Of a DNA stretch of 64,000 nucleotides, positions 15,636 through 35,052 are shown piece by piece. The notes below the pieces were generated by a model. That model worked only from the letters and a program-made list of their open reading frames with translations. It ran no database searches and was not told the DNA's origin. Each line of letters starts with the position of its first letter. Positions within the stretch are counted from its first letter, which is position 1. The position numbers were made by a program, and so were the translations under genes. Source of the DNA: Paracoccus sp. R12_2 (GTDB taxonomy: Bacteria > Pseudomonadota > Alphaproteobacteria > Rhodobacterales > Rhodobacteraceae); the NCBI RefSeq assembly GCF_017744015.1, contig NZ_JAGHRA010000018.1:1-64000 (forward strand), given 5' to 3'.

Positions 15636-15661
15636 CGCCGGTTCTCCTTTTCCGGATCGCG

Positions 15662-17173: not shown

Positions 17174-17203
17174 CGGATTCCTCCCCCGACCTTCGCAGGC
17201 AGA

Positions 17204-17228: not shown

Positions 17229-17245
17229 ATGATCGCGACCGCCGA

Positions 17246-18328: not shown

Positions 18329-18353
18329 GACATCCTCCCAGGTGGTTCGTGAA

Positions 18354-18368
18354 TATAGTATTACTAGA
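18354..18368. promoter_or_regulatory. Candidate operator of the second RpiR regulator
   Basis: TATAGT-ATT-ACTAGA lies just upstream of the binding-protein start. It matches the perfect palindrome TGTAGT-TTC-ACTACA at 24045 in the core TAGTnnnACTA. RpiR/HexR-type proteins are known to use TGTARTnnnnYTACA-like sites. Confidence 0.55.
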
Positions 18369-18517
18369 TAATTGACGATTCTGTCAAGCGACGTCACATT
18401 GGAATCCACTTCTTCCGGCCGTGATTCCTGGCGTTAACTAACAAAAAATATAGGAAAATAGTAAGTTCCGGTGACGCCCCGCGCGAACTCCGCCCGCGCA
18501 GGCGCTTTTTACGGGCA

Positions 18518-18532
18518 TGAAGTTTTACTAGA
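18518..18532. promoter_or_regulatory. Candidate operator of the second RpiR regulator (weaker)
   Basis: TGAAGT-TTT-ACTAGA lies immediately after the rpiA stop codon and about 190 bases upstream of the binding-protein start. It keeps the AGTnnnACTA core but the left arm is degenerate. It could be a second site for the transporter promoter. Confidence 0.35.
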
Positions 18533-19240: not shown

Positions 19241-19285
19241 TTTCGCCTCCTCCCGCGCGGACCATGCCGCGCCGCTTCAGGGGTT

Positions 19286-20125
19286 TCAGATCTTGTCGGT
19301 CTGCCAGCTATCCAGCGCGGGAAGCTGGTCAGGGAACTCACTGCCGCTGGCGATCGCGATGCCGGTCACCAGCATGTTAGTGACCAGATGATGATTTAGC
19401 CGCGATGCCAGGGGCGTCATCAGTTCGGTCCGGTCATAAGGCAGCACCGCGATGACTGCGTCCGAGACCCGCGCAAGCGGACTGTCGCCAGCCGCAACCG
19501 AGACCACGCGGGCGCCGCCGGCCCGGGCGGCGGTGGCGACCTCGACCATCTGCTTGGTATGACCGGACTGCGAAAAAATCAGCGCGACGTCGCCGGGGCG
19601 AGCGCTTTCCGCATGCATCCATTGCCGCTGCTTGCCCAACAGCGCCTGGCAGCGCATTCTCAGGCGCTGGAACTTATGCTCGGCATCCAGCGCATTCACC
19701 TCGGAAATTCCGGTGGCGTAGATGCCCGTCCAGCTTGCCGCCTGCAAAAGCCGCGCCCCCTCTGCTACCTGCTCGGGGTCCAGATCCTCAGCCAGCCGCT
19801 GGACCGCATTCAGAGAATTGCGGCACGTCTTGCGGACGATATTGGCAATGCTGTCCTGCGGGGTGATCTGCTCATAGGCGAAGGGCGCCGAGGGAACGAG
19901 GCTTTGCGCCAGATTGAGCTTGAAGTCCTGATAGCCCTCGAAGCCGAAGCGGCGGCAGAAGCGCATGATCGTAGGATCGCTGACCGAACACAGTTCGGAC
20001 AGCCGTGCCATGCTCATATGAATCACTTCCGACGGGGCAGTGCCCACGTAATCGGCCACCCGCCGCTCGGCCGGGCGCATTTCTTCGCGTTCGTGCAGGA
20101 TGCGTTGCAACAGGCTAACGGTCAC
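19286..20125 (-). CDS. RpiR-family transcriptional regulator
   Basis: A 279-residue regulator with an N-terminal RpiR HTH (MARLSELCSVSDPTIMRFCRRFGFEGYQDFK) and a C-terminal SIS domain (YATGISEVNALDAEHKFQRL; LIFSQSGHTKQMVEVATAARAGG). The start is GTG 20125 after AAGGAGAAAAAAACA. It sits inside the pentose operon, and palindromes with a TAGTnnnACTA-like core at 18354, 23862 and 24045 are its likely operators, giving feedback control of the operon and the divergent FAH operon. A phosphopentose ligand is likely but not shown. Confidence 0.9.
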   Translation of the reverse strand: MTVSLLQRILHEREEMRPAERRVADYVGTAPSEVIHMSMARLSELCSVSDPTIMRFCRRFGFEGYQDFKLNLAQSLVPSAPFAYEQITPQDSIANIVRKTCRNSLNAVQRLAEDLDPEQVAEGARLLQAASWTGIYATGISEVNALDAEHKFQRLRMRCQALLGKQRQWMHAESARPGDVALIFSQSGHTKQMVEVATAARAGGARVVSVAAGDSPLARVSDAVIAVLPYDRTELMTPLASRLNHHLVTNMLVTGIAIASGSEFPDQLPALDSWQTDKI

Positions 20126-20144
20126 TGTTTTTTTCTCCTTGCCA

Positions 20145-20816
20145 CTATCGTGCGGCGGTAGCTTTGCGCTCGTGCTGCAACAAATCCGCCAAACGGGCCA
20201 ACCTGTGGTCCGGCTCTACCTCGACCCCGCCGCCGCCGCCCCATGTCACGGCATAGAACGGCACTTCCGCCGCCTTGGCCGTAGCTTGGTCGACAAGTGT
20301 ATCGCCGACATAGGCCCAGGTGCCGGGCTGAAGCTCCATCGCCTCGGCCACGGCCATCAGGTGGCGGGCATCAGGCTTACAGGCCGGGACCGCATCCGCT
20401 CCCACCGCTGCATCAAACAGATGGGCCAGGCCGAGTTGCTCCAAAACCTTACCCGTCACCGCATGGTTCTTGTTCGTGCAGATGCCAAGCCGCAGCCCGG
20501 CAGCGCGCAAAGCCGCAAGATCCTCGGGGACGTGATCGAAGAATCGGGTCCGTCCAGCGGGATCGTCCAGATAGGTCTGCAGATAACCCTGAAACGCACG
20601 CTCGACCGCCGCGTCGTCGTATGGGATGTCCTGATCGTCTAAAATGTCGGTAATCAGGCGGTGAGGGCCGTTGCCGATGAATCGCTCGACATAGTGGGGG
20701 TCTAGCTGGGGCCAGCCGTTGCCCCGGAAGCCCACGTTCAACGCCGCGGCGATATCGGGGGCGCTGTCGATCAGCGTTCCGTCCAAGTCGAAAACGAAAG
20801 CGGAATAGGTGGGCAT
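20145..20816 (-). CDS. HAD-family phosphatase, phosphoglycolate-phosphatase-like
   Basis: A 223-residue HAD phosphatase. Motif I FDLDGTLIDSAPDI with two Asp is at residue 9, motif II ICTNKN near residue 113, and motif IV YVGDTLVDQATAKAA near residue 175. The length and cap type resemble phosphoglycolate phosphatase. In this operon it may remove a phosphorylated by-product of pentose metabolism. AGGAGCTCGCTTGT precedes ATG 20816. It lies 18 bases from the xylulokinase gene. Confidence 0.85.
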   Translation of the reverse strand: MPTYSAFVFDLDGTLIDSAPDIAAALNVGFRGNGWPQLDPHYVERFIGNGPHRLITDILDDQDIPYDDAAVERAFQGYLQTYLDDPAGRTRFFDHVPEDLAALRAAGLRLGICTNKNHAVTGKVLEQLGLAHLFDAAVGADAVPACKPDARHLMAVAEAMELQPGTWAYVGDTLVDQATAKAAEVPFYAVTWGGGGGVEVEPDHRLARLADLLQHERKATAAR

Positions 20817-20834
20817 ACAAGCGAGCTCCTGCGA

Positions 20835-22340
20835 TTATTGATCGAAGATGGCATCGCCGAGCGCGGCGAAGCTGTCGCTCAGCGCCGGGTAGAGCGAGCA
20901 ATATATCTCATGCGCACGTGCATGGACGCGAGCAGCGGCGCGATCGGGCGTCTCGCGCGTCAGGTCGCGGCAGCATCGCGCAGCGGTCGCCGCGTCCGGC
21001 CAGACCCCCACGGCCAGCCCCGCCACCAGCGCCGCGCCAAAGGCCGCGCCCTCGGCCGCACCTTCGGTGGTCACCACGTCGCAATCGAACATGTCCGCCT
21101 GGATCTGACGCCACAGCGCCGAGCGTGCGCCCCCACCCGAAGCCTTGACGATGCGCCCGTCGATCCCCATCGGCCGCATAAGGGCGTGCATATCGGCGAA
21201 AGCATGCACCACCCCTTCCATCAGGGCACGGGTCAGGTCCGCGCGGCGATGTCGGGCGGTCAGCCCGATGAAGGCCCCGCGCGCCGAAGGATCGGGATGA
21301 GGGCAGCGTTCCCCGTTTAGATAGGGCAGGAACAGAAGGCCCCGCGCGCCGGCAGGGCTTTCGGCCGCCTCAGCCACAAGTTGCTCGAATGGCGGCGCAT
21401 CGGCGCAATGCGTATCGCGATACCAGCTCATCGCGCCACCCGCGTTCAGCGACACGCCCATGCAATGCCACTTGTCGGCGGCGACATTGCAAAACACCTG
21501 CAGCTTGCCGTCGGGATTGTCCTGCGGCGCATCCAGCGCCGCGGCCAGTATCCCTGCCGTGCCCATGGTGGTCTGCAGCTCGCCCGGCGCGATCACGCCC
21601 GAGCCGATGGTCTGGATCACGCTGTCGCCGCCGCCGCCCGCGACCGGAACTCCTTCCTGCAAACCGAAAAGCGCGGCGCCCTTGGCGGAGATTTGGCCGG
21701 TGATTTCTTGCGATTCAAAGACTGGGGGCAACCGGGCCGGGTCGATGCCCGCCATCTCGATCAGCCCCGTCGCCCATTGCCGGCGGCGCACGTCGAAAAG
21801 CCCGGTTCCCGATGCGTCAGAGACCTCGCTGGCCACCTCGCCGGTCAGGCGCAGGCGCAGATAATCCTTGGGGTTCAGCATCAGGGACGTGCGCGCGAAC
21901 AACGCGGGCTCGTGGTTGCGCATCCACAGGATCTTGCCCCCGGTATAGCCGACCAGCATCCGGTTGTTGGTGGCGGCGAGCAAGCCTTCCAGCCCGCCGG
22001 CGGCCTCGGTCAGCGCCGCGCATTCGGTGCCATTGCGCTGGTCGTTCCACAGGATTGCCGGACGCAGCACGCGATGGCCCACATCCAGCGGCGTCAGCCC
22101 GTGCATCTGGCCCGACAAACCAATGCACAGGATCTCGACCCCTGGCACTTTGGCCAGCGCCCCGGCCACGGCCTTGCGCGCGCCTTCGATCCACAATTCG
22201 GGATCCTGCTCGGTCCAGCCCGGGCGCGGCTGGGACAACGGATAGGTCGCGGTATCGGCCGCGAGCACTGCGCCGTCGGTGCCGATCAGAAGCGCTTTGC
22301 ACCCCGAGGTGCCGATGTCGATGCCCAGAAGCGTCTGCAT
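20835..22340 (-). CDS. xylB: Xylulokinase (FGGY carbohydrate kinase)
   Basis: A 501-residue FGGY kinase. The N-terminal ATP-binding motif is GIDIGTSGCKALLIG; GLSGQMHGLTPLD is the XylB-type substrate loop; KASGGGARSALWRQIQADM is the second FGGY signature. It would phosphorylate D-xylulose to xylulose 5-phosphate. The downstream rpiA and the polyol dehydrogenase at 26195 fit a pentitol/pentose route. The stop of the aldehyde dehydrogenase gene is three bases before its start. A related pentulose specificity cannot be excluded. Confidence 0.9.
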   Translation of the reverse strand: MQTLLGIDIGTSGCKALLIGTDGAVLAADTATYPLSQPRPGWTEQDPELWIEGARKAVAGALAKVPGVEILCIGLSGQMHGLTPLDVGHRVLRPAILWNDQRNGTECAALTEAAGGLEGLLAATNNRMLVGYTGGKILWMRNHEPALFARTSLMLNPKDYLRLRLTGEVASEVSDASGTGLFDVRRRQWATGLIEMAGIDPARLPPVFESQEITGQISAKGAALFGLQEGVPVAGGGGDSVIQTIGSGVIAPGELQTTMGTAGILAAALDAPQDNPDGKLQVFCNVAADKWHCMGVSLNAGGAMSWYRDTHCADAPPFEQLVAEAAESPAGARGLLFLPYLNGERCPHPDPSARGAFIGLTARHRRADLTRALMEGVVHAFADMHALMRPMGIDGRIVKASGGGARSALWRQIQADMFDCDVVTTEGAAEGAAFGAALVAGLAVGVWPDAATAARCCRDLTRETPDRAAARVHARAHEIYCSLYPALSDSFAALGDAIFDQ

Positions 22341-22343
22341 GGC

Positions 22344-23825
22344 TCAGGCCCCGACACCGTGATGCAGCCGAACATGCTTGAAGTTGAAATATTCAAGCAG
22401 CCCTTCGCGCCCGTGCTCATAGCCGACGCCGCTTTGCTTTCGGCCGCCATAGGGAGCGTTCATGATCCCGGCGTCGACATTGTTGATCGCCACATTGCCG
22501 TAGTCCAGCCCCGCAGACAGGACATGGATCTCGGCCAGATCACGGGCATAAACGTAAGAGGCCAGCCCATAGGGCGTGTCGTTCGCCAATTCGACGGCCT
22601 CGGCCAGGTCGTCATAGACCGCGACGCCGACCAGTGGACCGAAGGTTTCCTCGCTCATCACCAACATCTCATGCGTGCAATCGGCGACCACGGTTGGACG
22701 GAAGAAGTGTCCCTTGGCATATTCCGAGCCCTCGGGCGCCTTGCCACCCGCAACCAGCCGCGCGCCTTGTGCCACCGCGTCCGCCAGATGGGTTCGCGTC
22801 TTGGTCAGTGGCTCAGCCGAAGCCATGGCACCCAGATCTGCCGCCGGATGCGTCAATCCATTATCCACGCTGAGCGCATCCGCCGCCTGCCCCAACCCCG
22901 CCAGGAATTCCTCATAGACCGAGCGGTGGACGTAGATCCGGTTGATGGCGATGCAGATCTGGCCGCAATTGCGAAAGCTACGGCGGGCCGCGCCCTTGAC
23001 CGCCGCCGCGATATCTGCACTGGCGGTCACGATCATCGGACAATTGCCCCCCAATTCCAGCGATAGCCGCTTTACCTGCGGGCAGCTTTGCTGGATGTGC
23101 AAGCCGACCGCGCTGGAGCCAGTGAAGGCAATCTTATCCACCTGCGGATGCTCGACCAGCGCTTGCCCGACCTGCGAGCCCTTGCCGGTCAGCACGTTGA
23201 CGACGCCTGCAGGAATCCCGGCCTCTAGGCATTTTTCGGCAATCGCCAGCGCGGTGAAGGGGGTGATCTCGGCAGGCTTAATGACGATGGTGCAACCCGA
23301 TGCAAGGCTGGCGCACAGTTTCCAGCCGACCAGTTCTGCCGGATAGTTCCAGGGCGTGATCGCGCCCACGACGCCGATGGGTTCGCGCACCACGAGGCTT
23401 TGAAAGCCGGGTTGTTCGTTCGGAACGATCTCGCCATGCACGCGGGTCGCCTCTTCGGCGTAGAAATGGCACGCCTCGGCCAGCTTCAGGATCTCGCCCC
23501 TGGCCTCGTTGACCGGCTTTCCCTGCTCGGCGGTCATGATGCGCGCCATGGCCAGCGCATCGGCGACGATCAGGTCACCCAAACGATGCAGCGCAGTGGC
23601 GCGCGCCTTGGGTAGTTCCGCGGCCCAAGGGCGGAAGGCGCGGCGGGCGGCCTGCACGGCGGCCTCGATTTCGGCCTCGGTTGCAGCGGCAATGTGGCCG
23701 ATGGTCTCGCCCGTTGCCGGATCCTCGACCGGCAGGCGATTGCCCGCGCCAGGACGTAGCGCGCCATCGATGAAGAGCATGCAGTCCAGTCGGCCTATCG
23801 ATTCCAGAATGGATTGATCTGTCAT
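22344..23825 (-). CDS. NAD(P)-dependent aldehyde dehydrogenase (succinate-semialdehyde-dehydrogenase-like)
   Basis: A 493-residue aldehyde dehydrogenase. It has TPWNYP (158-162), the catalytic Glu257 in LELGGNCP and the nucleophile Cys291 in NCGQICIA. Overall it resembles the succinate-semialdehyde/glycolaldehyde group rather than the KGSADH at 13106. A role in oxidising an aldehyde formed during pentose breakdown is likely; the substrate is open. It is the first gene of the operon running leftwards to rpiA, with GGGAG before the ATG and an operator candidate 37 bases upstream. Confidence 0.88.
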   Translation of the reverse strand: MTDQSILESIGRLDCMLFIDGALRPGAGNRLPVEDPATGETIGHIAAATEAEIEAAVQAARRAFRPWAAELPKARATALHRLGDLIVADALAMARIMTAEQGKPVNEARGEILKLAEACHFYAEEATRVHGEIVPNEQPGFQSLVVREPIGVVGAITPWNYPAELVGWKLCASLASGCTIVIKPAEITPFTALAIAEKCLEAGIPAGVVNVLTGKGSQVGQALVEHPQVDKIAFTGSSAVGLHIQQSCPQVKRLSLELGGNCPMIVTASADIAAAVKGAARRSFRNCGQICIAINRIYVHRSVYEEFLAGLGQAADALSVDNGLTHPAADLGAMASAEPLTKTRTHLADAVAQGARLVAGGKAPEGSEYAKGHFFRPTVVADCTHEMLVMSEETFGPLVGVAVYDDLAEAVELANDTPYGLASYVYARDLAEIHVLSAGLDYGNVAINNVDAGIMNAPYGGRKQSGVGYEHGREGLLEYFNFKHVRLHHGVGA

Positions 23826-23861
23826 GGTTCTGGCAACTCCCTCGTCCTCATGACGCTAAAA

Positions 23862-23876
23862 TATAGCATAACTAGC
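23862..23876. promoter_or_regulatory. Candidate RpiR operator for the pentose operon
   Basis: TATAGC-ATA-ACTAGC lies just upstream of the aldehyde dehydrogenase ATG, followed at once by a partly overlapping ACTAGCTACTAGC. It resembles 18354-18368 and 24045-24059. It lies in the 253-base divergent promoter region. Confidence 0.5.
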
Positions 23877-24044
23877 TACTAGCAAGGGGGATTGTGAAAG
23901 GTCGCCCGTGACGGGTGTATAGCCCGTCCGCAGAATGTTACTCATATATTTGTTTATAATTATTAAATTCGGATCTCTGATGACGATACGAAAATTTCCG
24001 TCACCATTCCACACGAACCTTCTTGACGAGAATCTATCATAATA

Positions 24045-24059
24045 TGTAGTTTCACTACA
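24045..24059. promoter_or_regulatory. RpiR/HexR-type operator, perfect palindrome
   Basis: TGTAGT-TTC-ACTACA is a perfect six-base inverted repeat ending 19 bases before the FAH-family gene start. The form TGTAGTnnnACTACA is the known site type of HexR-like RpiR proteins. The nearest RpiR gene (19286) is the likely regulator. Confidence 0.7.
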
Positions 24060-24078
24060 AATCGAGGAGGCGAAACTC

Positions 24079-25221
24079 ATGCTACCCAATTCACCCGAAA
24101 CCGCAAAGCTTGTCGGCCGTATCTGGCGCCCGGGCAAAGGTCCGTGCGTGGTGGTCCTGCGCGATGGTGCCATGATCGACGTTACCGAATCGGTCGTCTC
24201 CATCGCCGATTTCCTGGACGACGATCCGGCAGGCCGTTTCGACGGCCTGACCGGCGAAGCCGTCGGCAGGCCCGAGGAGTTGGTGTTGGACCCGGCGGAA
24301 ATGGGCTATCACGCCGAACGCCCCTGTCTGCTAACGCCGTGCGATTTCCAGGCGCTGAAAGCCTGTGGCGTGACTTTCGCGCAAAGCATGGTAGAGCGGG
24401 TGATCGATGAGCGCACCTCGGGCGATCCGGCCCGCGCAGACCAGTTGCGCCAGCGCATCGGCACGCTGATCGGCGACAGCCTGTCGAGTATCGAGGCAGG
24501 TTCCGAAAAGGCCGCCGAGGTCAAGGCGGCGCTGATCGCCGAGGGACTTTGGTCGCAATATCTGGAAGTCGGCATCGGCCCGGATGCAGAGGTCTTCACC
24601 AAGTCGCAGCCGATGTCGGCAGTCGGCCATGGCGCACAGGTGGGCGTGAACCGCATTTCGGACTGGAACAATCCTGAGCCCGAAGTGGTGCTGGCGGTGG
24701 ACAGCCAAGGCAACATTCGCGGCGCGACACTGGGCAACGACGTAAACCTGCGTGATGTCGAGGGACGCTCGGCCCTATTGCTGGGCAAAGCCAAGGACAA
24801 CAACGCCTCGTGCAGCATCGGTCCGTTCATCCGCCTGTTCGACGATGCCTTCAGCCTTGCCGACATCGAAAACGCCACGCTGACCATGGCCGTCACCGGC
24901 ACCGATGGTTTCCATATGTCCGGTCGCTCGAACATGGCCGAGATCAGCCGCAAGCCCGCCGACCTCGTCGCGCAGACGATGAATAAGTCGCATCAATATC
25001 CCGACGGCTTCATGCTGTTTCTGGGCACCATGTTTGCCCCTACGCAGGACCGCGCCGAGAAGGGATCGGGGTTCACCCACAAACCGGGCGACGTGGTGGA
25101 AATCTCGACCCCACTTCTGGGCGCGCTGCGCAACACGGTCGTCCATTCCGACGAGGCTGCGCCATGGATCTTCGGCACCCGTGCCCTGATGCGCAACTTG
25201 GCCGGACGGGGGCTGCTGTGA
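24079..25221 (+). CDS. Fumarylacetoacetate-hydrolase-family enzyme (sugar-acid dehydratase/hydrolase type)
   Basis: A 380-residue FAH-superfamily protein with a family-specific N-terminal extension. The metal-binding region includes EPEVVLAVDSQG and GNDVNLRDVEGRSALLLGKAKDNNASCSIGPF, where the acidic residues and Lys are typical of the family. Related enzymes dehydrate 2-keto-3-deoxy-pentonates to alpha-ketoglutarate semialdehyde, or cleave 2,4-diketo-3-deoxy sugar acids. The first role would link it to the semialdehyde dehydrogenase at 13106, but this is inference. GAGGAGGCGAAACTC precedes ATG 24079. The next gene overlaps it (GTGA). Confidence 0.85.
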   Translation: MLPNSPETAKLVGRIWRPGKGPCVVVLRDGAMIDVTESVVSIADFLDDDPAGRFDGLTGEAVGRPEELVLDPAEMGYHAERPCLLTPCDFQALKACGVTFAQSMVERVIDERTSGDPARADQLRQRIGTLIGDSLSSIEAGSEKAAEVKAALIAEGLWSQYLEVGIGPDAEVFTKSQPMSAVGHGAQVGVNRISDWNNPEPEVVLAVDSQGNIRGATLGNDVNLRDVEGRSALLLGKAKDNNASCSIGPFIRLFDDAFSLADIENATLTMAVTGTDGFHMSGRSNMAEISRKPADLVAQTMNKSHQYPDGFMLFLGTMFAPTQDRAEKGSGFTHKPGDVVEISTPLLGALRNTVVHSDEAAPWIFGTRALMRNLAGRGLL

Positions 25222-26183
25222 GCGAAGCCGCATTGAAACTAGTCGTCACCGACCAGGCCTTCGGCGATACCCGACACGAACGGGCGGCCGCCACAGCCGC
25301 CGGAGCTACTTTCGCCGAATTTCAGTGTCGCAGCGAGGATGAGGTGCTGGAGGTGGTCCGCGGCGTCCATGCCGTCCTGAACAACTTCGCACCGATGACC
25401 CGGAAGGTGATGGCGGCGATGGCGCCGGGCGCGGTCGTGGTGCGCTATGGCGTGGGCGTCGACAATGTCGATCTGGCCGCCGCGCGGGATCTGGGCGTGC
25501 GCGTTTGCAACGTGCCCGATTACGGCGTGGACGAGGTCGCCGACCATGCCGCCGCGATGACGCTGGCGTTGGCACGCAAGCTGGACAGTTATGACGACGG
25601 CATCCGCGCCGGCGAATGGAAGATCGGCGCGATGGTGGACGGGCTGCGCTCGCTGCGCGACACTACTGTGGGCCTGATCGGGCTGGGCCGGATCGCGCGG
25701 GCATATGCTGCGCGGATGGCCGTATTCGGCTGCCGCATCACCGGCTTCGATCCCTTCATACCCGAGGACCAGATCCGCACTGCCGGCATCTGCCCCCAGC
25801 CCCGCGACGAGGTGGTTGCCAGCGCCAATGTGCTGTCGCTGCATGTCCCGCTGACACCCGAGACGCGACACCTAATCGACGCCGCCGCCATCACCCGGAT
25901 GCCGACTGGCGCGATTCTGATCAACTGCTCGCGCGGCGGACTGGTCGATGAGGACGCGCTGGCCGCGGCGCTGGTTTCCGGGCATCTGTCCGGCGCCGGC
26001 CTCGACGTGTTCGAGAAAGAGCCCCTGCCCGCCGGCTCGCCCTTGCAGCAGGCGCCACATGTGCTCATGTCGCCCCATGCCGCTTTCTACTCGGACGCCT
26101 CGGTCGATGCTCTGCAACGGCTGGCGTCGGAGGAGGCGTTGCGTGGTTTGCGCGGCGAACCTTTGCGCTGCGCACTGACCTGA
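25218..26183 (+). CDS. D-isomer-specific 2-hydroxyacid dehydrogenase
   Basis: About 321 residues. It has the NAD-binding motif GLIGLGRIARAYAARM, the substrate-binding Arg in LINCSRGGLVDEDAL, and the catalytic pair Glu (GLDVFEKEPLP) and His (SPHAAFYSD). It would reduce or oxidise a 2-keto/2-hydroxy acid with NAD(P). The start is GTG 25218, overlapping the FAH stop in GTGA, which implies translational coupling; the frame is open further upstream only as part of the FAH gene. It may act on a keto sugar acid of this pathway. Confidence 0.88.
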   Translation: MSEAALKLVVTDQAFGDTRHERAAATAAGATFAEFQCRSEDEVLEVVRGVHAVLNNFAPMTRKVMAAMAPGAVVVRYGVGVDNVDLAAARDLGVRVCNVPDYGVDEVADHAAAMTLALARKLDSYDDGIRAGEWKIGAMVDGLRSLRDTTVGLIGLGRIARAYAARMAVFGCRITGFDPFIPEDQIRTAGICPQPRDEVVASANVLSLHVPLTPETRHLIDAAAITRMPTGAILINCSRGGLVDEDALAAALVSGHLSGAGLDVFEKEPLPAGSPLQQAPHVLMSPHAAFYSDASVDALQRLASEEALRGLRGEPLRCALT

Positions 26184-26194
26184 GGGAGGTTCGA

Positions 26195-26956
26195 ATGGAT
26201 TACAGGGCGAAACAAGACCTGACCGGCAAGCTGGCTCTGGTCACCGGCGCTGGCCAGGGCATCGGCGCCGCCATCGCTGAGGGGTTGGCCGCCACTGGGG
26301 CTGAGGTGATCTGCACTGACATTCTGCGCGAGCGCGCCGAAATCACCGCCGGCGATCTGACGGCAAGGGGCTTCAAGGCGCGGGCCGAGGCACTGGACGT
26401 GACCGACAGCTCCGGTATCGACGCGCTGGCGGCCGCGCTGCAGCCGCTGGACGTTCTGGTCTGCAATGCCGGCATTGTCACCAACACCCCAGCCGAGGAC
26501 ATGAAGGACGCGGAATGGGATCGGGTTATAGCCGTGAACCTGACCGGCGTCTTCCGCACCTGTCGCGGCTTCGGGCGGCGCATGCTGGAGGCCGGGCGCG
26601 GCTCGATCGTCAATATTGGCTCGATGTCTGCCCAGATCGTTAACGTGCCACAGCCGCAATGCCATTACAACGCCTCGAAGGCCGGCGTGCATCACCTGAC
26701 GAAATCGCTGGCGGTCGAATGGGCCACGCGCGGGATCCGGGTGAACGCCGTTGCGCCGACCTATATCGAGACCCCACTGCTGCACGGGTTGGAGAGCCAG
26801 CCCGGACTGGTGTCCCGATGGCTGGAGATGACGCCTGCTGAACGGATGGGGCAACCGGACGAAATCGCATCGGTGGTGCAGTTCCTCGCCTCGGACGCGT
26901 CTAGCCTGCTGACCGGCGCGATAATCAACGCCGATGCGGGCTATACTTGCATCTGA
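26195..26956 (+). CDS. SDR-family polyol dehydrogenase (galactitol-dehydrogenase-like)
   Basis: A 253-residue short-chain dehydrogenase. It has the cofactor motif VTGAGQGIGAA, NAG in the central strand, and catalytic Ser-Tyr-Lys in NIGSMSAQIV and HYNASKAGVHHLTKSLA. The start (DYRAKQDLTGK) and end (GAIINADAGYTCI) resemble Rhodobacter galactitol dehydrogenase and related pentitol dehydrogenases. It would oxidise a sugar alcohol to a ketose with NAD, which the kinase at 20835 could phosphorylate. A ribosome site GGGAGG lies before ATG 26195. It ends the divergent FAH operon. Confidence 0.88.
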   Translation: MDYRAKQDLTGKLALVTGAGQGIGAAIAEGLAATGAEVICTDILRERAEITAGDLTARGFKARAEALDVTDSSGIDALAAALQPLDVLVCNAGIVTNTPAEDMKDAEWDRVIAVNLTGVFRTCRGFGRRMLEAGRGSIVNIGSMSAQIVNVPQPQCHYNASKAGVHHLTKSLAVEWATRGIRVNAVAPTYIETPLLHGLESQPGLVSRWLEMTPAERMGQPDEIASVVQFLASDASSLLTGAIINADAGYTCI

Positions 26957-27026
26957 CCGCCGCGCGACGAAGGATCACCGAACACCTGCAGGTTCTGACG
27001 GCCCACCTTGAACAAAAGAAACAGGG

Positions 27027-27420
27027 ATGAGACATATGGCCGTGGTCATCGGCGCGGGATTTGCCGGGCTGCAGGTCGTGCTGGGTCTGAAGGCCGTGGA
27101 TCGGGCCGTTACTTTGATCGACCAGCGCAACCATCGTCTGTTCCAGCCGCTGCTCTATCACGTGGCGCCCACGTTGCTGGCGACCTCGGACATCACTTAG
27201 CCGAATCCGCGCGCTGATGCGCGAGCGAAGGAACGTCACCACGCTGCTGGTCACGGTGCAGGACATCGACCGGGCCGCAAACGAAGTCGTCCAGCGGAAT
27301 GGCGAGCTCGTGCCCATTGACGCCTTGGTCATCGCCACCTGCGTCCGCCACGCCTTTTTTGGCAACGACTGGTGGGGATCCGATGCGCATGGGCTCAAGA
27401 CGGCGTTGTTGCGCAAATCA
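27027..27420 (+). pseudogene. Broken NADH dehydrogenase type II-like flavoprotein gene
   Basis: The first 57 codons encode an FAD-binding start typical of NDH-2 (VVIGAGFAGLQ, then RNHRLFQPLLYHVAPTLLATSDIT), ending at TAG 27198-27200. The homology then continues one base out of frame as RIRALMRERRNVTTLLVTVQDID and VIATCVRHAFFGNDWW...GLKT. In the family this region reads DIxWPIR, so a Trp codon has become TAG and one extra A has entered just after it. After GLKT (about 27400) the homology fades and the C-terminal half is missing. This is a decayed fragment beside the mobile region. Confidence 0.75.
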
Positions 27421-27803
27421 GCGTTCGGGCAGATGGTCCCCTTTCCCGTGGCCCTTCAGGCGATAGCCTCGATTTCGGCCCTGCAGAGGGCCGAGAAGGG
27501 GTTCATGATTGCGATGCGGATCTGGCTTTGGCGGTCTGGCAGCTGGGGTGTCGGGTCTTGATCCGCTCACCGAAGAGCCCAATGCGGTTTACCTGCGCCT
27601 CGACCCGACTTCGCACACGGTAACCCGCCCATTTCTTCCAGAGTGCCCTACCGAGGTGCCGAGTTGCAAAGTTGCACGCAGGGACTCGATTCGCGCAACT
27701 GCTGCGGGACAGTCTTCCTTCCAGGCGCGACCGTTGCGGCGGATAGATATGACAGCATCGCCGCGTGTCGTAGGCACCGTCCCCGGACGCGGCGACAATC
27801 TCT

Positions 27804-27940
27804 TCATCCTCGGGAATTGTGACTCAGCGAGATATCGTCGAAGCGCATCAAGGCATCGTGCGAGAGTCCGATGCTGTCGGCAACATCCTCAACAGTGGGT
27901 CGGAGGGTCTTCGCGACCTCTTGTGGGTCCAGCATCATAT
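27804..27940 (-). pseudogene. Possible fragment of an Xre/MbcA/ParS-type antitoxin gene
   Basis: On the minus strand a frame reads MLDPQEVAKTLRPTVEDVADSIGLSHDAL, which fits the N-terminal helix-turn-helix of the Xre/MbcA/ParS antitoxin group. The frame stops at 27804 after SLSHNSRG, and no toxin-binding C-terminal domain or RES-type toxin gene is visible. If correct it is a remnant of a toxin-antitoxin pair. The match is short and from memory, so confidence is low. Confidence 0.25.
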
Positions 27941-28436
27941 TATCGGCAGACAGCGGTATGCGCCACGTTCTGATCCGCATCACGTCGAGAAGCATTCTCT
28001 TCTGACCTCGAAAATAAACCCTCGTGGACGGTGCCATCCACCAGATGATCGGTGCGGCGGATGAAGTCTTCGAACAGCTCCGACTGATCCCGACGGATCG
28101 GATCGTCGCGTCGTTCTCTATGCAGATACAGGGTGGCCGAAGCAGTGACTATGATTGCTGCGACAGCATTGAAGATCTCGAGCGCGCCCATGTCGGGCAT
28201 CCCTCCCAAAAGACGACAGACATATTGCCGCCGCAGGCGTATCAACGATCAAACCCAGAAGTGAAATCTTGTGTGAGAGGCGCCAAAAAGCAAGAGCGTC
28301 GCGTCAGGCTGACCTCTCGCAGACAAATTGCTTCTGAATTGTCAACGACACCAGCGTCGATGTCGGTCAATTTTATCGAAGCTCAGCGGCAGTCAGCGAC
28401 GGCTTAGGGGCGCGGCACCGGCGGCGTAGACGCGCT

Positions 28437-28483
28437 CCCCCTATATATGTTCCGACATCTCTATCGAGATGTCGTATAGGGGG
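28437..28483. repeat. Compound inverted repeat
   Basis: Outer arms CCCCCTATA (28437-28445) and TATAGGGGG (28475-28483) enclose perfect inner arms CGACATCTC (28453-28461) and GAGATGTCG (28466-28474), with a 7-base asymmetry on the left. The chance of such nested arms is low. It could be a regulatory hairpin, a resolution or recombination site, or part of an element end. Confidence 0.5.
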
Positions 28484-29158
28484 AAATTCGAAGTGAGGCA
28501 ATCTCAGCTCCGAAGAGAAAGATTGCCCGTGTTGCCCGATGCCCACAGCACGTGCGACGAAGACTGTAACCCCCTGCCCCATCCAATTGCTGGCTCTGCT
28601 CGGAAACGGCTAGACTTCCCTCACCATGCTGAACAACGTCGCACATATCACCCTTCTCGCCTCCCGGCGAATACGCTGACTCTCGAGGGTCAGCGCCCGG
28701 GCGGTCACAGCGATTAACAGCATCGCTCTGACTGTGCGACTATCCTCGCCCTCCACGTTCCCGCTTCCATCGATATCGTCGCTGCGTCGAGATCGGCGAG
28801 TTCTCTGGACCAGGATCGCGATGATTCGGCGAAGCCACCCCAACATCGGCGACTGCCATTCCAAGATTCTCGACTGCGGCACATAATCGGCCGAGTTAGC
28901 GCGGTTCCCGATTCGAACAGGGCGCGGCTGTGAAAACGCCCTTCGTTCCACGGAAATCGTGGGGAATTGGTGCGCTGACAGGAGATGAAGACGGCAGGCA
29001 GTTTGCATTTTCGCAAAGCTGATTGGGGGGAATGCATACCACCGAATGAAACGCAGTCAAGAATTTGACATCAAACAATTTTGTGTCGATCACCCTGCCC
29101 GCCGAGACCCTCCGGCATCTGGCTCTTCGCTCAAGGAGAAACGATGGAAGCATAAGAA

Positions 29159-29191
29159 AACGGCCCCGCGGTTTGCCGACCGCGAAGCCGT
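29159..29191. terminator. Hairpin in gene-poor region
   Basis: ACGGCCCCGCGGT and ACCGCGAAGCCGT pair around a TTGCCG loop with two mismatches. A T-run is absent on the plus strand; the minus strand has only a weak TTTTC tail. It may be a remnant terminator. Confidence 0.35.
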
Positions 29192-29458
29192 TCGAGGCAG
29201 ACCGAAGCCTACCGCAGGTTAATGCCGGATCGCTATCAGCGAGCATGCTCTGAAGCAAGCTTTCCGGCGCGCTGAGGTCTCCTCCCGCACCTTGAGGCGT
29301 CCCTACATACCGAGCTCCGACCCAACTGCCGTCGATTTAAATTCGCTGGCGATTGGCCTCGCATGTCTGCAGGACGCAGACGCCTCATTCGGCCAAACCA
29401 AACATGGCCAACGCCGTCCCCAGAGGGCGGCGATCAACCCCCTATGAGGAAAATCCTA

Positions 29459-30169
29459 ATGCGCGAATATCACCGCGAACATCTGGGCGGCTTTGCTCCA
29501 CCCTTGCCGAGCTCCGCAGACCGGATGGTCGCGACGAGCTCCAGGGCTCATTTCTGTGGCCATGTCGTCATCGGCGATGGGTCAGGTCGCGGCGCGATCT
29601 CCGGAGTCACGCCCCGGGTTGTGCACGTCGAGAGCCATCTCGAACTCTGCTGGTGTCTCTGCCTGTCCGTCCGTCCTGACATCATCGACCTGCGCGAGCA
29701 GGCGCGGTTCGACTGGTTCGACGAGGATGGCGAGGTCCGTTCCCATTTCTTCGACCTGCTCGTAACCCGAAACGATGGAAGCCGACTGGCCTGTGCCATC
29801 CGCCCCGCCATCCGCAGTCGTGGGCGCCTCGGCCGACAGCTGCCCAGGATTGCGACCCAGGTGCGTGCCAGCGGCTTCGCAGATGATGTCCGCCTCCTGA
29901 CAGATCACGATCTCGACTCGGTGGAACTTCACAACGCCTGGATCCTGCATGGCATTCGTGTCGGCGATCAGCAGGTCGATGCAAGAGCCGTCGACGTGTT
30001 CGAGACATTGTCCGGCACGGCAACACTGTCGGAGCTCACTTCACGGATCGGCCTGGGGGTCGTCGGCTTTCGTGCGCTGCTCCGACTTCTGCGCAGCGGC
30101 CACCTCCAAATGCTTCGGTCCGAAAAAATCACCCCGTCCGCAACAGTCTACAAAGGGAGCAACCTCTGA
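29459..30169 (+). CDS. TnsA-like transposition endonuclease
   Basis: About 236 residues, first gene of a tnsA-tnsB-tnsC-tniQ set. The middle has the restriction-like fold pattern of TnsA: VESHLE with the first acid, EQARFDWFDEDG, and FFDLLVTRNDG with the second acid. At the position of the catalytic QxK/xxK motif it reads CAIRP, so Arg replaces the Lys. The C-terminal part (DVFETLSGTATLSELTSRIG onward) looks like a winged helix. ATG 29459 follows GAGGAAAATCCTA; ATG 29444 is an alternative. In Tn7, TnsA makes the 5' cuts that turn copy-in into cut-and-paste; the Arg makes its activity doubtful. It overlaps the transposase start in TGATG. Confidence 0.65.
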   Translation: MREYHREHLGGFAPPLPSSADRMVATSSRAHFCGHVVIGDGSGRGAISGVTPRVVHVESHLELCWCLCLSVRPDIIDLREQARFDWFDEDGEVRSHFFDLLVTRNDGSRLACAIRPAIRSRGRLGRQLPRIATQVRASGFADDVRLLTDHDLDSVELHNAWILHGIRVGDQQVDARAVDVFETLSGTATLSELTSRIGLGVVGFRALLRLLRSGHLQMLRSEKITPSATVYKGSNL

Positions 30170-32351
30170 TGCATATGCCCAACCTGTCCTTCGACGCCGA
30201 TCGCCATCACTACGCCTTCGGTCACTACGACCGCATCACGCTCGACGGCGTGTCCTACAAGACCGTCACCCATGGCCGGAATGAGGTAGGCTGGGTGCTA
30301 CAGCGGGACGATGATTCCGGCCTCTGCGCGTCCTTTTCCCATAGCGAGTTGAGCCGCATGGGCTCGACGGGGCGGATCCGGGTCGAGCATAACTATCGTG
30401 CCCCAGAGACTGCGAAGGCTCGGCTTCTCGGTGCCGGAATGCGAATTTCCGAGCTGCCTTCCGCCAAAGCTGCCCGGGTCACCCGGAAAAGCGCCTATGT
30501 CGAAGCCTTCCGTGAACTTCTGCAGGAAAACCTGATCAAGATCACGGATGAAAGCATCAAGGCCTGCAAGGACCTGCTTCGCAGCCGGGCCATGGACTAT
30601 GCCCGCAAGCTGACGGGCGGTCTCGGCACGCCCATGTCCGAGGATATCTCCAATATGCCCTCAGCACGCACGCTGCGGCGCTGGATCCAATCGTTCCGCG
30701 ATCTTGGCATGAGTGGGCTGATCGATGCAATGGACAAACGTGGCAATCGCAACCGAGCGATGAGCGGTGAAGAGCAAGCGCTGATGATGCGGGAAGTCGA
30801 TGGTTATGCCAGCGAGGAACGGCCGACCATCAGGACCATCCATGTCAACGTCTGTCTCGCCTTCAAGGCGCGAAACGAAGATCGCCGAGACCGCGGCCTG
30901 CATCCCTTCAACATTCCGAGCTACGAGACCGTCCGCCGGGCCATCAATCGCCTGGAGCCGTATACAGTCACCCTCAAACGTGAGGGTGCCGAGGCTGCGC
31001 GCAAGAAGTTCATGCCGGTGGGTGAAGGACTGCAACTCACCCGTCCGCTCGAGCGGGTAGAGATCGACGAAAACACGATCGACATCATCTCGTTTGCTGA
31101 AAGCGCGGGTCTCATGGCGCTTCTGACCGAAGAGGAACGAAACCTCCTCGGATTGGACAAAGGGAAGGCTCGCTGGTTCGTGACGGTCGCCATCTGCGCG
31201 ACGACGCGCTGCATCCTCGGCATGGCATTCTCACGGTCCGCGAAGGAAGAGGCTTCACTGCAAGTTCTGCAGATGATCCTGCGTGACAAGGGGAAATGGG
31301 CCGACGCGACAGGGTCGCTCGGGTTCTGGGACATGCATGGCACCCCGATCCTCATCGTCACCGACAATGGCGCGGCCTTCAAATCGGAACGCTTCAGGAT
31401 CGCCTGCGCCGATCTCGGCATCACCACCATGCGTGCCCCGCCGCTTTGCCAGAGATGCGCGCCCGGAACGAGCGGTTCTTCGACAGCCTCCGAACCGGTC
31501 TGCATCCGCGCCTGCCCGGAAACACCTTCGGCAGCATCCGGGCCAAGGGAAATGCCGATCCCGAGGCCCGTGCCGTGCTCACCTTCGACGACCTGGCCTT
31601 CTGCCTGGTGCGCTGGATCGTCGACATCTACCATAATACTCCGCATGCCGGACTGGGCGGCGAGACGCCCCTCGACTGCTGGCGGCGGCTGACTGCCCAA
31701 TGGGGTGTGCAACCGCCTCCTGATGCAGAAACCCGGCGCGCCGTTTTCGGAGAGCGCATGACGCGCAAACTGACGCGTGAGGGCGTAACTGTTCTGGGTA
31801 TGCGCTACCATTCCGAGGCGCTGGCCCAGTGGATTCTCCGGCGCGGGGAGCGCGATGTCGAAGTGCGCTGGCATCCCGACGATATCAGCAGGGTCAACGT
31901 CTACGCGGGCGGGCAGAACTTTGAGGTCCGCGCGGTCCATGACGGCTTCCAGGGGGTGTCGGCACGGCAGTGGTTGGCCGCAACACGCGAACTGCGGTCT
32001 ACCCATGCCGCACGCACGACCCGCGATCGAGAGTCTGTGCTGGAAGCGGTCAGCGCGATCAAGGCGCGCAGCACAGCGGCGACGAAGCTGGCCGGACTTC
32101 TGGTTGATGAATGGTCTCCTGAACGAATTCGGCGCGAGGAGCAGCGCCTCTTCACCGGCTTCTCGATTTCCGGCGAAAAGCAGGCGCCCGTCCGGGAAAC
32201 GGATGGCCTCGGCCGCTCGATCCCCGAACAGGAAGGCCCTTCGGCACCCAGCACCGCCCAGCCCTCGGCGCCGAGCGGACTGGCGCGTGACGTTGCGGCG
32301 ACCGGGCCCACTGAGCAGAAAGCGCCCACCACCTGGACGATCACGGAGTAA
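30169..32351 (+). pseudogene. TnsB/TniA-family DDE transposase, frameshifted
   Basis: Two frames together make one Mu/Tn7-type transposase of about 727 residues. The first (30169 to about 31440) carries the DNA-binding N-terminus, Asp300 in RVEIDENTID and Asp399 in VTDNGAAFKSERF. The homology then moves one base back, to the frame ending at 32351. That frame reads ALPEMRARNERFFDSL, whose Glu (31470-31472) is the catalytic E, followed by LVRWIVDIYHNTPHAGLGGETP and the Mu C-terminal domain. A single-base loss within about 31432-31450 explains this. No classical slippery heptamer for programmed -1 frameshifting is visible there. Unless it is a sequencing error, the catalytic triad is split and the transposase inactive. 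Confidence 0.8.
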
Positions 32352-32352
32352 G

Positions 32353-33312
32353 ATGATGCCGAACCCTGCCGAAATCGCGCAGATCATGGATAAACTGCGC
32401 CGCCGCCGCATCAACACGAACCGCGATACGGACTTCGCGTGCCATCTTGAACGCCTGCTTTGCAGGCACGATAATGGCGATCTTTCGCACGAGCCACGTC
32501 GCTTCTCGGATGGCCGCGAAACCCGGGGCGTCATGGTGATCGACGGCGCGGGAGGGGGCAAGACGACGCTGATCGCCCGTGCCCTCGAAAGGCATCCGGT
32601 TCTCGTTGGGAAGACCGGCCGGCATTATCTCGACGCCAGCGTCCCCAGCCCGGCAACCTTCAAGAGCATGGGCAATACCTTGCTGCACCGCAGTGGTTAT
32701 CCGGTCATCGCCGGAAACCGCGAGGGCTGGAGCTTGTGGGAGACGCTGCGAGGGCGTCTCAAGGATCTTGGGATCACCGTTTTGTGGATCGATGAGGCCC
32801 ATGATCTGTTCTGCGCCGACAAGAACCTGATCCTGCGGGCCATCAAGGCGCTGATGCAGGGGGACGAGGCCATCATCCCCATTCTCTCCGGCACCGAGAT
32901 GCTGCGCGAGATCGTCCGGTCTGATCCCCAGGTCCAGCGCCGCTTCTCGACCCTGGTTCTGCCGCCTGTGTCTGAGGCAGCAGACGGCAACTGTTTCTGG
33001 CACGTTCTCGATGAATATTGCCGAACTGCTGGCCTCCAGCCGCCGACCGACATCGATCTCATGCCGCGTCTCTTCCATGCGGCGAGATACCGCTTTGGCA
33101 GATGTGTCGACACCATCATCGGGGCGATCGAGCAGGCACTTGAAGGTAATGCTTCAAGCCTCGACATCGGGCATTTCGCCGAGTTCTGGGGCATACAGGA
33201 AGGATGCTTCCTCGATCAGAACGTCTTCACCGCCGTCGACTGGCAGTCGGTCGATCCGGACAGAGACGAGCAGCACGAAATGCCGAGGGCGCGCCGCAGG
33301 CGGAGGCGGTAA
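32353..33312 (+). CDS. TniB/TnsC-family transposition ATPase
   Basis: A 319-residue AAA+ ATPase. Walker A is GAGGGKTT (65-72), Walker B is LWIDEAHDLF (145-153), and SGTEML followed by QVQRRFSTL fits sensor and arginine-finger regions of TniB. In Tn5053- and Tn7-like elements this regulator links target selection to the transposase. ATG 32353 lies one base after the transposase stop. It ends in a basic tail (RARRRRRR) and its stop overlaps the next start in TAATG. This frame looks intact. Confidence 0.9.
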   Translation: MMPNPAEIAQIMDKLRRRRINTNRDTDFACHLERLLCRHDNGDLSHEPRRFSDGRETRGVMVIDGAGGGKTTLIARALERHPVLVGKTGRHYLDASVPSPATFKSMGNTLLHRSGYPVIAGNREGWSLWETLRGRLKDLGITVLWIDEAHDLFCADKNLILRAIKALMQGDEAIIPILSGTEMLREIVRSDPQVQRRFSTLVLPPVSEAADGNCFWHVLDEYCRTAGLQPPTDIDLMPRLFHAARYRFGRCVDTIIGAIEQALEGNASSLDIGHFAEFWGIQEGCFLDQNVFTAVDWQSVDPDRDEQHEMPRARRRRRR

Positions 33313-34250
33313 TGAGACCTGCCCTGTTTCCGCTGCTGCCGTTCGCGGCCGATGAAACCACGTGCTCCTGGGCTGCCCGCATGGCAGCATTTCATGCGCG
33401 TAGTTCCGTCGGGACGTTCCTGCGCGACCTGAATCTTGATCCGCATCTCATGGCCTTGGGTGATCGGGACGAGATTGGTCGGCTTTGTGAGATTGCCGGA
33501 CAGGATCCGCGACCGGTTCTCGGCAACACGCTCACCCGCTTGAAAGGAAGCGCTCATGCGCTCGGTCGCGATATGATGCGAACAATCCTGTGTCCCGCGA
33601 CACGGATCCGTTTCTGTCCGGCCTGCATCGCCCTGGACGATGCAGCTTCAGTGGCAACGAACCAGAATCCTGCAGTTCATCGGCGCGAACGGCTGATCTG
33701 GCGTTTCAGACCAGTGCGGACATGCCCTCACCACGGCGTCGATCTCGAGTGCCGCGTCCGGCCTGCCGACAATCACGTTATGGGTGCCTTTGGCGAAATC
33801 GGGCCCGGATCAGTCCACTTGCTGACCAGCATTGACTATGAAGGCGAATTGCGTTCCGCATCCAGCCTTCAGCGCTACGTGGCGGAGAGGATCTCGGGCA
33901 ATGCCACGGATCACTGGCTGGACACGGTTCCGCTGGAACAGGTCGTCCGTTTCAGTGAGCTGCTCGGTGCCATCCTTCTCCATGGTCCTCGCACATTTTT
34001 GGAGGACCTGTCGGAACCTGAATTGTGCGCCGCCGGCGCCGTCGGATGGACCAATGTTTCTCACGGAGAGCAGAGTATCACCAGGGCGCTGCATGTCGTG
34101 CATGCGCAGCACCACTTTGATGTTGGCAGCAAGGCACGGTCTTTTCGGGATACGTTCTACAATCTCGTTGAGGAGGTCGAGTATTACCCGAGCACATCTC
34201 CCTTTCGAGCCTTACTTCGGCGTCATGTCGAACACTCTGCCCTGAACTGA
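33312..34250 (+). CDS. TniQ-family target-selection protein
   Basis: A 312-residue TniQ protein. The N-terminus LFPLLPFAADETTCSWAARMAAFH is typical. A zinc-binding array is present: CPATRIRFCPAC, followed by CPHHGVDLEC about 60 residues later. TniQ/TnsD proteins recruit the transposition complex to a target. The C-terminus ends soon after YYPSTSPFRALL, shorter than the larger TnsD proteins, so a C-terminal DNA-binding part may be missing; this is uncertain. It is the last gene of the module and is followed by a strong terminator. No Cas gene or guide array is nearby. Confidence 0.88.
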   Translation: MRPALFPLLPFAADETTCSWAARMAAFHARSSVGTFLRDLNLDPHLMALGDRDEIGRLCEIAGQDPRPVLGNTLTRLKGSAHALGRDMMRTILCPATRIRFCPACIALDDAASVATNQNPAVHRRERLIWRFRPVRTCPHHGVDLECRVRPADNHVMGAFGEIGPGSVHLLTSIDYEGELRSASSLQRYVAERISGNATDHWLDTVPLEQVVRFSELLGAILLHGPRTFLEDLSEPELCAAGAVGWTNVSHGEQSITRALHVVHAQHHFDVGSKARSFRDTFYNLVEEVEYYPSTSPFRALLRRHVEHSALN

Positions 34251-34323: not shown

Positions 34324-34481
34324 GGTGCTCATCTGGATATATCGCTGGTCACTAATTGCGGTGAAAGTGGACATGTTGACAAAATTCGTATCCTGACGCC
34401 AACCATTTATCCATTTAAAACAACGTATTAAGATAGCCCGATTCTCTGCGAATGGTCAGTATTTATGTGCTCGGACAAGAA

Positions 34482-34512
34482 TTGTCGCGAACTGGCAAAG
34501 TTGATTTGTCGC
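34482..34512. repeat. Direct TTGTCGC repeats
   Basis: TTGTCGC occurs at 34482-34488 and 34506-34512, 24 bases apart in the same orientation, flanked by similar AT-rich bases. Spacing of about two helical turns suits tandem protein sites such as TnsB-binding sites. Only two copies are seen, so it could be chance. Confidence 0.3.
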
Positions 34513-34617: not shown

Positions 34618-35052
34618 TCAGTCGCGGGTCAAGGACACCACGCGGCGGATCGCTGCGGCATAACCCTCCAGCCCAAGCCCGGCGATCACGCCGTCGGCGC
34701 GCAGCGAAACATAGGAATGATGGCGGAATGCCTCGCGCTTGTGCACCTGGCTGATGTGAACTTCGATCACCGGCCCGTCAAAAGCGTTCAGCGCGTCCAG
34801 GATCGCGACCGAGGTGTGGGTCAGGGCGGCCGGGTTGATGACGATGCCGCAGGCCGCCTCGCGCGCCGCGTGGATCCAGTCCACGATCTGGCCCTCCCAA
34901 TTCGACTGCCGAATCAGGATGTCGTGGCTGTCGCCGGCGGCATCCCGGCACAGCAGCTCGACATCCTCTAGCGACTCTCGGCCATATATTTCGGGCTGGC
35001 GGCGCCCAAGCAGGTTCAGGTTCGGGCCATTCAGCACATGGATCGTCTTCAT
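34618..35052 (-). CDS. aroQ: Type II 3-dehydroquinate dehydratase
   Basis: A 144-residue type II dehydroquinase. It has the N-terminal [18 protein letters not shown] with the catalytic Tyr, [16 protein letters not shown], and [17 protein letters not shown] with the catalytic His region. It makes 3-dehydroshikimate in the shikimate pathway, or acts in quinate catabolism. It stands alone on the minus strand just after the mobile region and is intact. AroQ proteins usually have 140-150 residues, as here. Confidence 0.94.

Follow-up and report, generated by a model that had tools for sequence, protein, structure and literature searches.

A Tn7-like transposon family of Paracoccus with dif as its proposed attachment site

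The stretch of DNA analysed here, hereafter the window, comprises 64,000 nucleotides of Paracoccus sp. R12_2 (contig NZ_JAGHRA010000018.1, positions 1 to 64,000) and carries at positions 29459-34250 a module of four genes, for a TnsA-like protein, a DDE transposase, TniB, and TniQ. This module very probably belongs to a family of Tn7-like transposons of Paracoccus that use as their attachment site dif, the XerC/XerD site for resolving chromosome dimers. Comparison with the genome of a sister species puts the four genes at the TniQ-side end of an element of ~59.8 kb, which spans window positions 1-34477 plus part of another contig of the same genome, C13. In 8 of 8 copies of the family, the same distal (A) end faces dif, 29-32 bp from its inner TTAT (in one copy, at a dif-like variant). 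An earlier note on this DNA had reported no att site next to the module and suggested that its targeting rule might be new. That rule proved worth seeking, since comparison of flanks among relatives yielded the fixed spacing from dif; the attachment site exists, beside the other end of the element and off the window.

A short conserved, low-copy site for separating linked chromosomes, dif is needed for their clean segregation. The insertions leave it intact and should therefore be harmless, so that a cargo-carrying Tn7-like element at a fixed distance from dif would have a widespread and probably harmless attachment site at its disposal.

Element ends and the dif rule

The genome that contains the window (4.07 Mb, 51 contigs) was compared with that of a sister species, G096. 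The two are 95.9% identical over the 12.3 kb that start at window position 34479 and are unlike to the left of it. The last 55 bases before this boundary in G096 match contig C13 at 82%, where the flank reads ...CCCAGATAGAAT then TGTCGGACCTACGATATATTGACCATTC, and this left flank shares 96% identity with G096 contig C14 over 8.4 kb. The distal end on C13 reads AGAAT followed by TGTCGGACC..., the right boundary in the window reads ...GCTCGGACA then AGAATTGTCGCG (which begins with AGAAT), and G096 carries the empty site CCCAGATGGAATTGTCGCG. Set against this empty site, the flanks place the two ends at C13 position 27766 and window position 34477, with a 5-bp duplication, AGAAT. The corresponding features of the window are as follows.

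34402..34477, + strand: TniQ-side transposon end, whose outer end reads TGTCCGAGCACATAAATACTGACCATTCGC on the other strand; placed by the G096 homology boundary at 34479 and by the likeness of ends across five elements
34478..34482: target-site duplication AGAAT, with its partner at C13 27761-27765, before the distal end

The ends are of the TGT...ACA type, contain repeated transposase-site-like sequences (read by eye), and are alike across elements, near TGTCGAACAACTGAAATAATGGCCATTC; such ends, with repeats and a 5-bp duplication, characterise Tn7-like elements. A model in which the element stays within the window and has its left end near 26.9-29.4 kb was rejected, as no AGAAT-TGT occurs there. 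The course of the element between C13 and the window follows from contig overlaps: the last 127 bases of C13 are the first 127 of contig C34 and also the end of C44, and the last 127 bases of C34 are the start of the window's contig and also the start of C2 read backwards. The path C44-C34-C2 is collinear with G096 contig C33, and the remaining path, C13-C34-C9, gives an element of 59,826 bp.

Relatives of TniB at E <= 1e-40 are encoded in 22 of 125 genomes of the genus. The boundaries of the elements in Paracoccus aminovorans and in genomes G117 and G086 were found by a search for similar ends with equal 5-bp flanks, so that equality of the duplications was a criterion in these three; it was not one for the present element, delimited by the empty site, or for that of G107, whose end was predicted from dif. 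The five bounded elements are listed below.

Present element: 59,826 bp, duplication AGAAT
P. aminovorans plasmid IV element: record positions 366594-398795, 32,202 bp, duplication ACCTT, with an arsenic operon as cargo
G107 element: 57,667 bp, duplication CCGCC
G117 element: 9,835 bp, duplication ACCGA
G086 element: 24,146 bp, duplication GTTGC

A motif, CATAAYNCNGRTTAT, lies 29-31 bp from the distal end in four of these elements (the present one and those of P. aminovorans, G117, and G086). It is found in 108 of the 125 genus genomes, mostly once or twice, against 2 hits in all for a reversed-pattern control, and GC skew flips from + to - at the motif in 7 of 8 large contigs (20 kb compared on each side). 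The reverse complement of the motif, ATAA-TCNGTA-TTATGTAAC, has the layout XerC arm, spacer, XerD arm; in Acinetobacter, the XerD arm is TTATGTTAAAT, in the published spacer-XerD layout (PMC10132070). The genus-wide occurrence, the skew flips, and the fit of the arm layout are the reasons for reading the motif as dif. An earlier prediction of dif failed for Paracoccus denitrificans (Kono et al., PMC3025954), and the location of dif on Paracoccus replicons is mapped in a paper from 2026 (PMC13342612).

Four further copies, in G107, P. versutus, P. kondratievae, and a remnant in G075, were not used to find the motif, and in all four the end lies 30-32 bp away (in G075, from a variant core). The G107 genome has a single exact motif, 32 bp from which CCGCC is followed by TGTATAACAACTGAAA; CCGCC also follows the other end. 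A previous candidate for this end (38,439 bp), which matched in 8 of 14 letters and apparently lay inside coding sequence, was replaced by the one predicted from dif, an example of how the rule can locate element ends. In P. versutus DSM 582, the motif is at L021:3096 and the end 31 bp on, and the contig stops before the other end. On the P. kondratievae plasmid, where the element was found by TniQ homology, the motif is at 81236, the near end at 81282 (31 bp), and the far end at 132412. Taken over the 8 copies, insertion is site- and orientation-specific, as in Tn7-like elements generally; on the assumption of 11-bp arms, the distal end lies ~22-25 bp beyond the XerC arm. The spacer between dif and the insertion holds 0.39-0.41 bits per column, compared with a mean of 0.32 and a maximum of 0.46 in 300 random sets; the core holds 1.64.

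The elements found at dif also stand apart by their TniQ. In 5 of 5 of them, TniQ measures 311-314 aa from the likely starts (longest open reading frames [ORFs], 313-384 aa), compared with 492-742 aa, as longest ORFs, in all 21 relatives whose ORF is unbroken. The five bounded elements form one group in the TniQ tree (support, 100/100) and group with the G075 remnant in the TniB tree (100/99). G113, which represents the same plasmid as P. seriniphilus L025, was left out of the length comparison and the trees, as were the broken TniQ ORFs of G121 and G075a out of the length comparison and the TniQ tree. Around 12 of 13 sister-clade elements, the exact motif is absent from the 31-99 kb fetched for each; in G003, it lies 20 kb off.

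Several observations weigh against dif as the target of the family. At the window's own site (left, -0.014; right, -0.011) and at the second motif of the genome, on contig C22 (+0.049, +0.010), GC skew keeps its sign, and it is flat at the motif of G023, the eighth of the large contigs. Duplications are equal in 5 of the 7 copies with both ends found and unequal in the other two, P. kondratievae (GCCCG/CGCAT) and G075 (GTGCG/GACGG); since its duplications differ, the P. kondratievae copy may be rearranged. The end of the G075 remnant (3.1 kb) lies 30 bp from a variant core, and the TniB tree requires two changes of the dif label, this remnant having been left unlabelled. The ends of most of the 13 sister-clade elements were not found. 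The pattern of dif plus A end occurs in 1 of 394 genomes of the family Rhodobacteraceae, the window's own (control, 0), and is in this sense Paracoccus-only; the set consisted of the window's genome, a further Paracoccus, and 392 genomes that each represent a different genus, and ends of different sequence would have been missed. The length of 59.8 kb depends on the resolution of a collapsed assembly repeat, and the contact between TniQ and XerC or XerD that we infer below is drawn by analogy. A match of the dif-plus-end pattern on a viral contig was taken as chance, the contig being AT-rich with no recognisable tns gene in the 3.4 kb examined.

The four genes and the broken transposase frame

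The earlier note gave the coordinates of the four genes and their tight coupling correctly. The end of the TnsA-like gene overlaps the transposase ATG (TGATG), the transposase stop at 32351 is separated by one base from TniB, which begins at 32353, and the end of TniB overlaps the TniQ start at 33312 (TAATG).

29459..30169, + strand: TnsA-like gene (the ORF opens at 29363)
30169..31440, + strand: DDE transposase (TnsB), first part, including Asp399 of TDNGAAF (rve 3e-05, under the cut-off)
31446..32351, + strand: DDE transposase, second part, with PEMRARNERFF (the catalytic Glu region) and a Mu-type C-terminal domain (Mu-transpos_C 8.3e-12)
32353..33312, + strand: TniB, a TnsC-type AAA+ ATPase (Pfam TniB 9.4e-13)
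33312..34250, + strand: TniQ, core-only form of 312 aa (Pfam TniQ 1.9e-15)

The description of the module as Tn7-like is borne out by clear family matches of TniB, TniQ, and Mu-transpos_C; those of rve and TnsA fall under the cut-offs. For the TnsA-like protein, the indications are NCBIfam NF033179 (TnsA_like_Actin) at 1.8e-08, under the curated cut-off, a weak match to Pfam TnsA (0.093), and homologues in relatives, with 59-68% identity to those of P. aminovorans, P. versutus, G107, and G117. A TnsA-like endonuclease gene and an operon that joins a TnsB/Mu-type DDE transposase, an AAA+ TniB, and TniQ are both marks of Tn7-like elements. The first part of the transposase is 66-80% identical to the dif-clade copies, and TniB is 75-76% identical to the P. 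aminovorans and G107 copies. The gene order tnsA-transposase-tniB-tniQ, which the note had singled out, does recur elsewhere, in 22 of 28 related loci that have tniB, and is therefore not unusual. Searches of solved structures with TnsA, TniQ, and TniB returned nothing useful, and an AlphaFold model of TniQ alone was uninformative (mean predicted local distance difference test [pLDDT] score, 35). The same genome carries on contig C49 (183561-184355, L033) a second, distant Tn7-like set, with a TniB 33-34% identical and a long TniQ of 625 aa.

In the TnsA alignment (from which G086, G020, ownC49, and G061 are missing as short or excluded rows), the putative Lys position of the PD-(D/E)xK motif is Arg (CAIRP) in the window copy; the E and FD positions are kept. 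The same Arg occurs in all five aligned dif-clade copies (the present one, P. aminovorans, G107, G117, and P. versutus) and in the sister rows G116, G143, G075b, Qalk, and G121; the remaining rows have Lys (VKP). Since Arg is also found in sister-clade elements with no dif seen nearby (Qalk lies outside the dif check), the change may predate the dif habit.

In the assembly, a change of transposase frame falls at ~31440 to 31446, between Asp399 and the catalytic Glu, and the other three genes are open, just as the note had said. The first part tracks its relatives to ~31440, and the second part, with PEMRARNERFF, continues open in the next frame as far as 32351. Intact relatives exist: the alignment with them, which the note had proposed, finds the same stretch in one frame in P. 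aminovorans (a single frame of 727 aa), in G117 (one ORF of 781 aa, its listed start being upstream of the likely ATG), and in 5 of 5 dif-clade copies, where the two parts are collinear. The term "degraded" fits the transposase and not the rest of the element, as both ends and their target duplications are preserved, none of the other three frames is broken, and the ratio of nonsynonymous to synonymous change (pN/pS) is below 1 for every gene. Pairwise among six copies, pN/pS ranges over all genes from 0.20 to 0.62, the highest value being that of TniQ, so constraint acted on the frames until recently. As its transposase frame is broken, the window copy is probably immobile now; its ends could still be mobilised in trans by an intact relative.

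An error of assembly or sequencing, which would leave the window element active, is unlikely but deserves to be taken seriously: the break is the sole lesion seen in the four genes, and both transposase parts look constrained (pN/pS of 0.23-0.39 versus the dif-clade relatives), but the stretch is not a long homopolymer by eye, and the assembly is rated 99.99% complete with 0.07% contamination. It is very improbable that TnsA, TniB, and TniQ were retained for a host function after the death of the transposon. Their frames are indeed open and constrained; however, next to a single lesion and with intact ends and duplications, open neighbours need no new function. Least credible of all is a programmed frameshift that joins the two frames into one transposase, for which only the geometry speaks, the upstream and downstream frames both being long, whereas the relatives encode the stretch in one frame and no slippery heptamer of the usual kind was seen by eye.

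Cargo and leader

The claim that the module lacks cargo was mistaken: cargo takes up the window from position 1 to ~29 kb, and another 22 kb of it lies on contig C13. The remaining features of the window are these.

1..29100: cargo genes for sugar/polyol transport and catabolism (inner limit approximate; from Pfam matches of window proteins, contig overlaps, and synteny)
29144..29215, + strand: conserved leader upstream of tnsA, with a short frame of Shine-Dalgarno sequence, ATG, and stop, a hairpin, and then CGAGGCAGACCG
34618..35052, - strand: aroQ (type II dehydroquinase; DHquinase_II 1.2e-54), a flanking host gene outside the element

A putative pyc (pyruvate carboxylase) gene, identified by reading, occurs twice in the genome: window positions 1-302 are the 3' end of its second copy, completed by C34 (3,262 bp, L129), where the assembly collapses the cargo copy with the native one; the last 302 bp show 5 mismatches. 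As 3,262 bp are collapsed, the two copies must be near identical. Beyond position 302, the G096 matches among those listed (40 candidates scored per search) are scattered and partial, the longest being 66% identical over 1.8 kb. A region at 27402-27764 is the remnant of an IS5-family transposase region, 83% identical to DNA of P. seriniphilus that surrounds a transposase annotated as IS5.

Near the distal end, on C13, L117:12545-16697 encodes a helicase of 1,089 aa that matches PADLOC PDC-M23B (2.5e-31) and HamB (4.1e-27). Together with its neighbour of 296 aa, it is a possible defence system carried as cargo; the neighbour had no family match, and a full Hachiman system is not claimed. An AAA ATPase is encoded near the distal end of three dif elements, the present one and those of P. 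aminovorans and G107 (L117:10180-11286 on C13; L150:23352-24464; composite G107), and relatives of it occur near sister-clade elements as well (composites, including G116), with matches ~1-2 kb after tniQ in G105, G008, and G036. G117, P. aminovorans, and P. kondratievae have a metallophosphoesterase, of which G086 has a fragment. The 9.8-kb G117 element has little room beyond the four tns genes, an IS21-like pair, and the phosphoesterase (ORFs by reading), and hence little for the Cas effector and CRISPR array that mark CRISPR-associated transposons. Among its ORFs of at least 100 aa, only the four tns genes and the antisense frames that overlie them match in all five bounded elements. The dif rule links islands of Paracoccus with metabolic, arsenic-resistance, or possible defence functions to a single type of vehicle.

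The leader was aligned in six elements (the window, L021, L022, L083, L085, and L086): its hairpin varies in sequence and is followed by CGAGGCAGACC, and the short frame is seen by eye in several copies. In Ketogulonicigenium, a more distant element has a 70% match directly upstream. The leader possibly serves attenuation or antisense control. An antisense RNA of the repABC type was rejected, as Rfam RF00489 reached a score of 27.9 (gathering score, 50) and also hit a plain terminator in L085; searches with the leader gave no convincing repABC region, only two short matches in a plasmid without gene annotation.

Recognition of dif and comparison with known systems

Excision of Tn7 is carried out by TnsA together with TnsB, the protein that recognises the transposon ends, and TnsC bridges to the selector (Faure et al., PMC10293859). 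By the same logic, TnsB of the Paracoccus elements would bind the transposon ends, TniB would act as the TnsC-type ATPase bridge, and the short TniQ would bring this bridge, and hence the transposase, to dif. TniQ would most likely dock on dif occupied by the host XerC and XerD, a platform favoured by analogy with Tn6022 (see below) and because the spacer is not conserved, TniQ has no long C-terminal extension, and no fifth gene was found in common. The main rival, that TniQ itself reads dif DNA with XerC and XerD uninvolved, is a distinct possibility, if not the answer we expect. DNA alone would suffice for the fixed spacing, and the core is the only strongly common feature of the flanks; nevertheless, the C-terminal extension present in its relatives is missing from the dif-clade TniQ. 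Such long extensions might confer recognition of target DNA, and TniQ of CRISPR-associated transposons has been described as largely core (Faure et al., PMC10293859). The dif rule makes testable whether the transposition machinery sees DNA or a Xer protein.

That the elements merely prefer the replication terminus or AT-rich spacers, closeness to dif being a by-product, carries hardly any weight with us. The flanks are A/T-rich and intergenic in the copies where they were read, but the spacing varies by only 3 bp and the orientation is constant; chromosome-size contigs (G107, G086) and plasmids are hit alike, and in the DNA fetched around the sister-clade elements, dif is not close to them. 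A bolder and rather improbable extension of the Xer-bound dif model is that Xer serves the transposon twice: XerC/XerD at dif would replace a target selector encoded by the transposon, and Xer recombination between the dif sites of donor and target would resolve cointegrates, the fused replicons, in place of the resolvase of Tn5053-type elements. Cointegrates enter this scheme because the Lys-to-Arg change in TnsA possibly inactivates the nuclease. The genes found in common in the five bounded elements do not include one for a resolvase; no resolvase-specific search of the cargo was made. If the scheme were true, dif would have been chosen as both a near-universal landing pad and a resolution site.

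Known systems share different parts of this picture. Tn7 likewise has TnsA, TnsB, a TnsC-type ATPase, a TniQ-family selector, a 5-bp duplication, and TGT/ACA ends, and it inserts in one orientation at a set distance from the site it recognises. It inserts, however, downstream of glmS (attTn7) via TnsD, whereas the Paracoccus elements target dif with a core-only TniQ and only four genes found in common, and are thus not Tn7 itself. The res-site hunters Tn5053/Tn402 also combine a DDE transposase, TniB, and TniQ with a recombinase site as target. They have no TnsA, target res, and bring their own resolvase, TniR; the TnsA-like gene and the dif target place the present family outside this group. 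Tn6022, a Tn7-like element that targets comM, resembles it in its short TniQ (369 aa), whose partner TnsF carries an inactive XerH-like tyrosine recombinase region (PMC10293859); here the target is dif, no fifth gene was found in common, and the host Xer proteins are the proposed partner.

The nearest precedent for what appears, from these comparisons, to be new, a Tn7-like variant whose attachment site is dif, is provided by the "dif site hunters" of the IS1202 family (ISAjo2, ISAba71, and others; PMC10132070). No report of a Tn7-like element at dif was found among the literature matches listed, which did not cover most subscription papers or any bioRxiv preprints, and the whole word "dif" is absent from the main texts of PMC10293859, PMC8649781, and PMC11406308. 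Like the present elements, the IS1202 hunters insert beside dif or pdif, on the XerC side and in fixed orientation, with a 5-bp duplication, TGT/ACA ends, and a TnsB-like DDE transposase. They differ in being 1.5-kb single-gene elements that lie 5 bp from the XerC site and encode no further Tn7-type proteins (PMC10132070), whereas the Paracoccus elements have four genes, measure 9.8-59.8 kb, and lie ~22-25 bp from the XerC arm, which sets them outside the IS1202 family. They would thus add dif to the known Tn7-like targets and provide, beside the IS1202 hunters, a second case with a different architecture.

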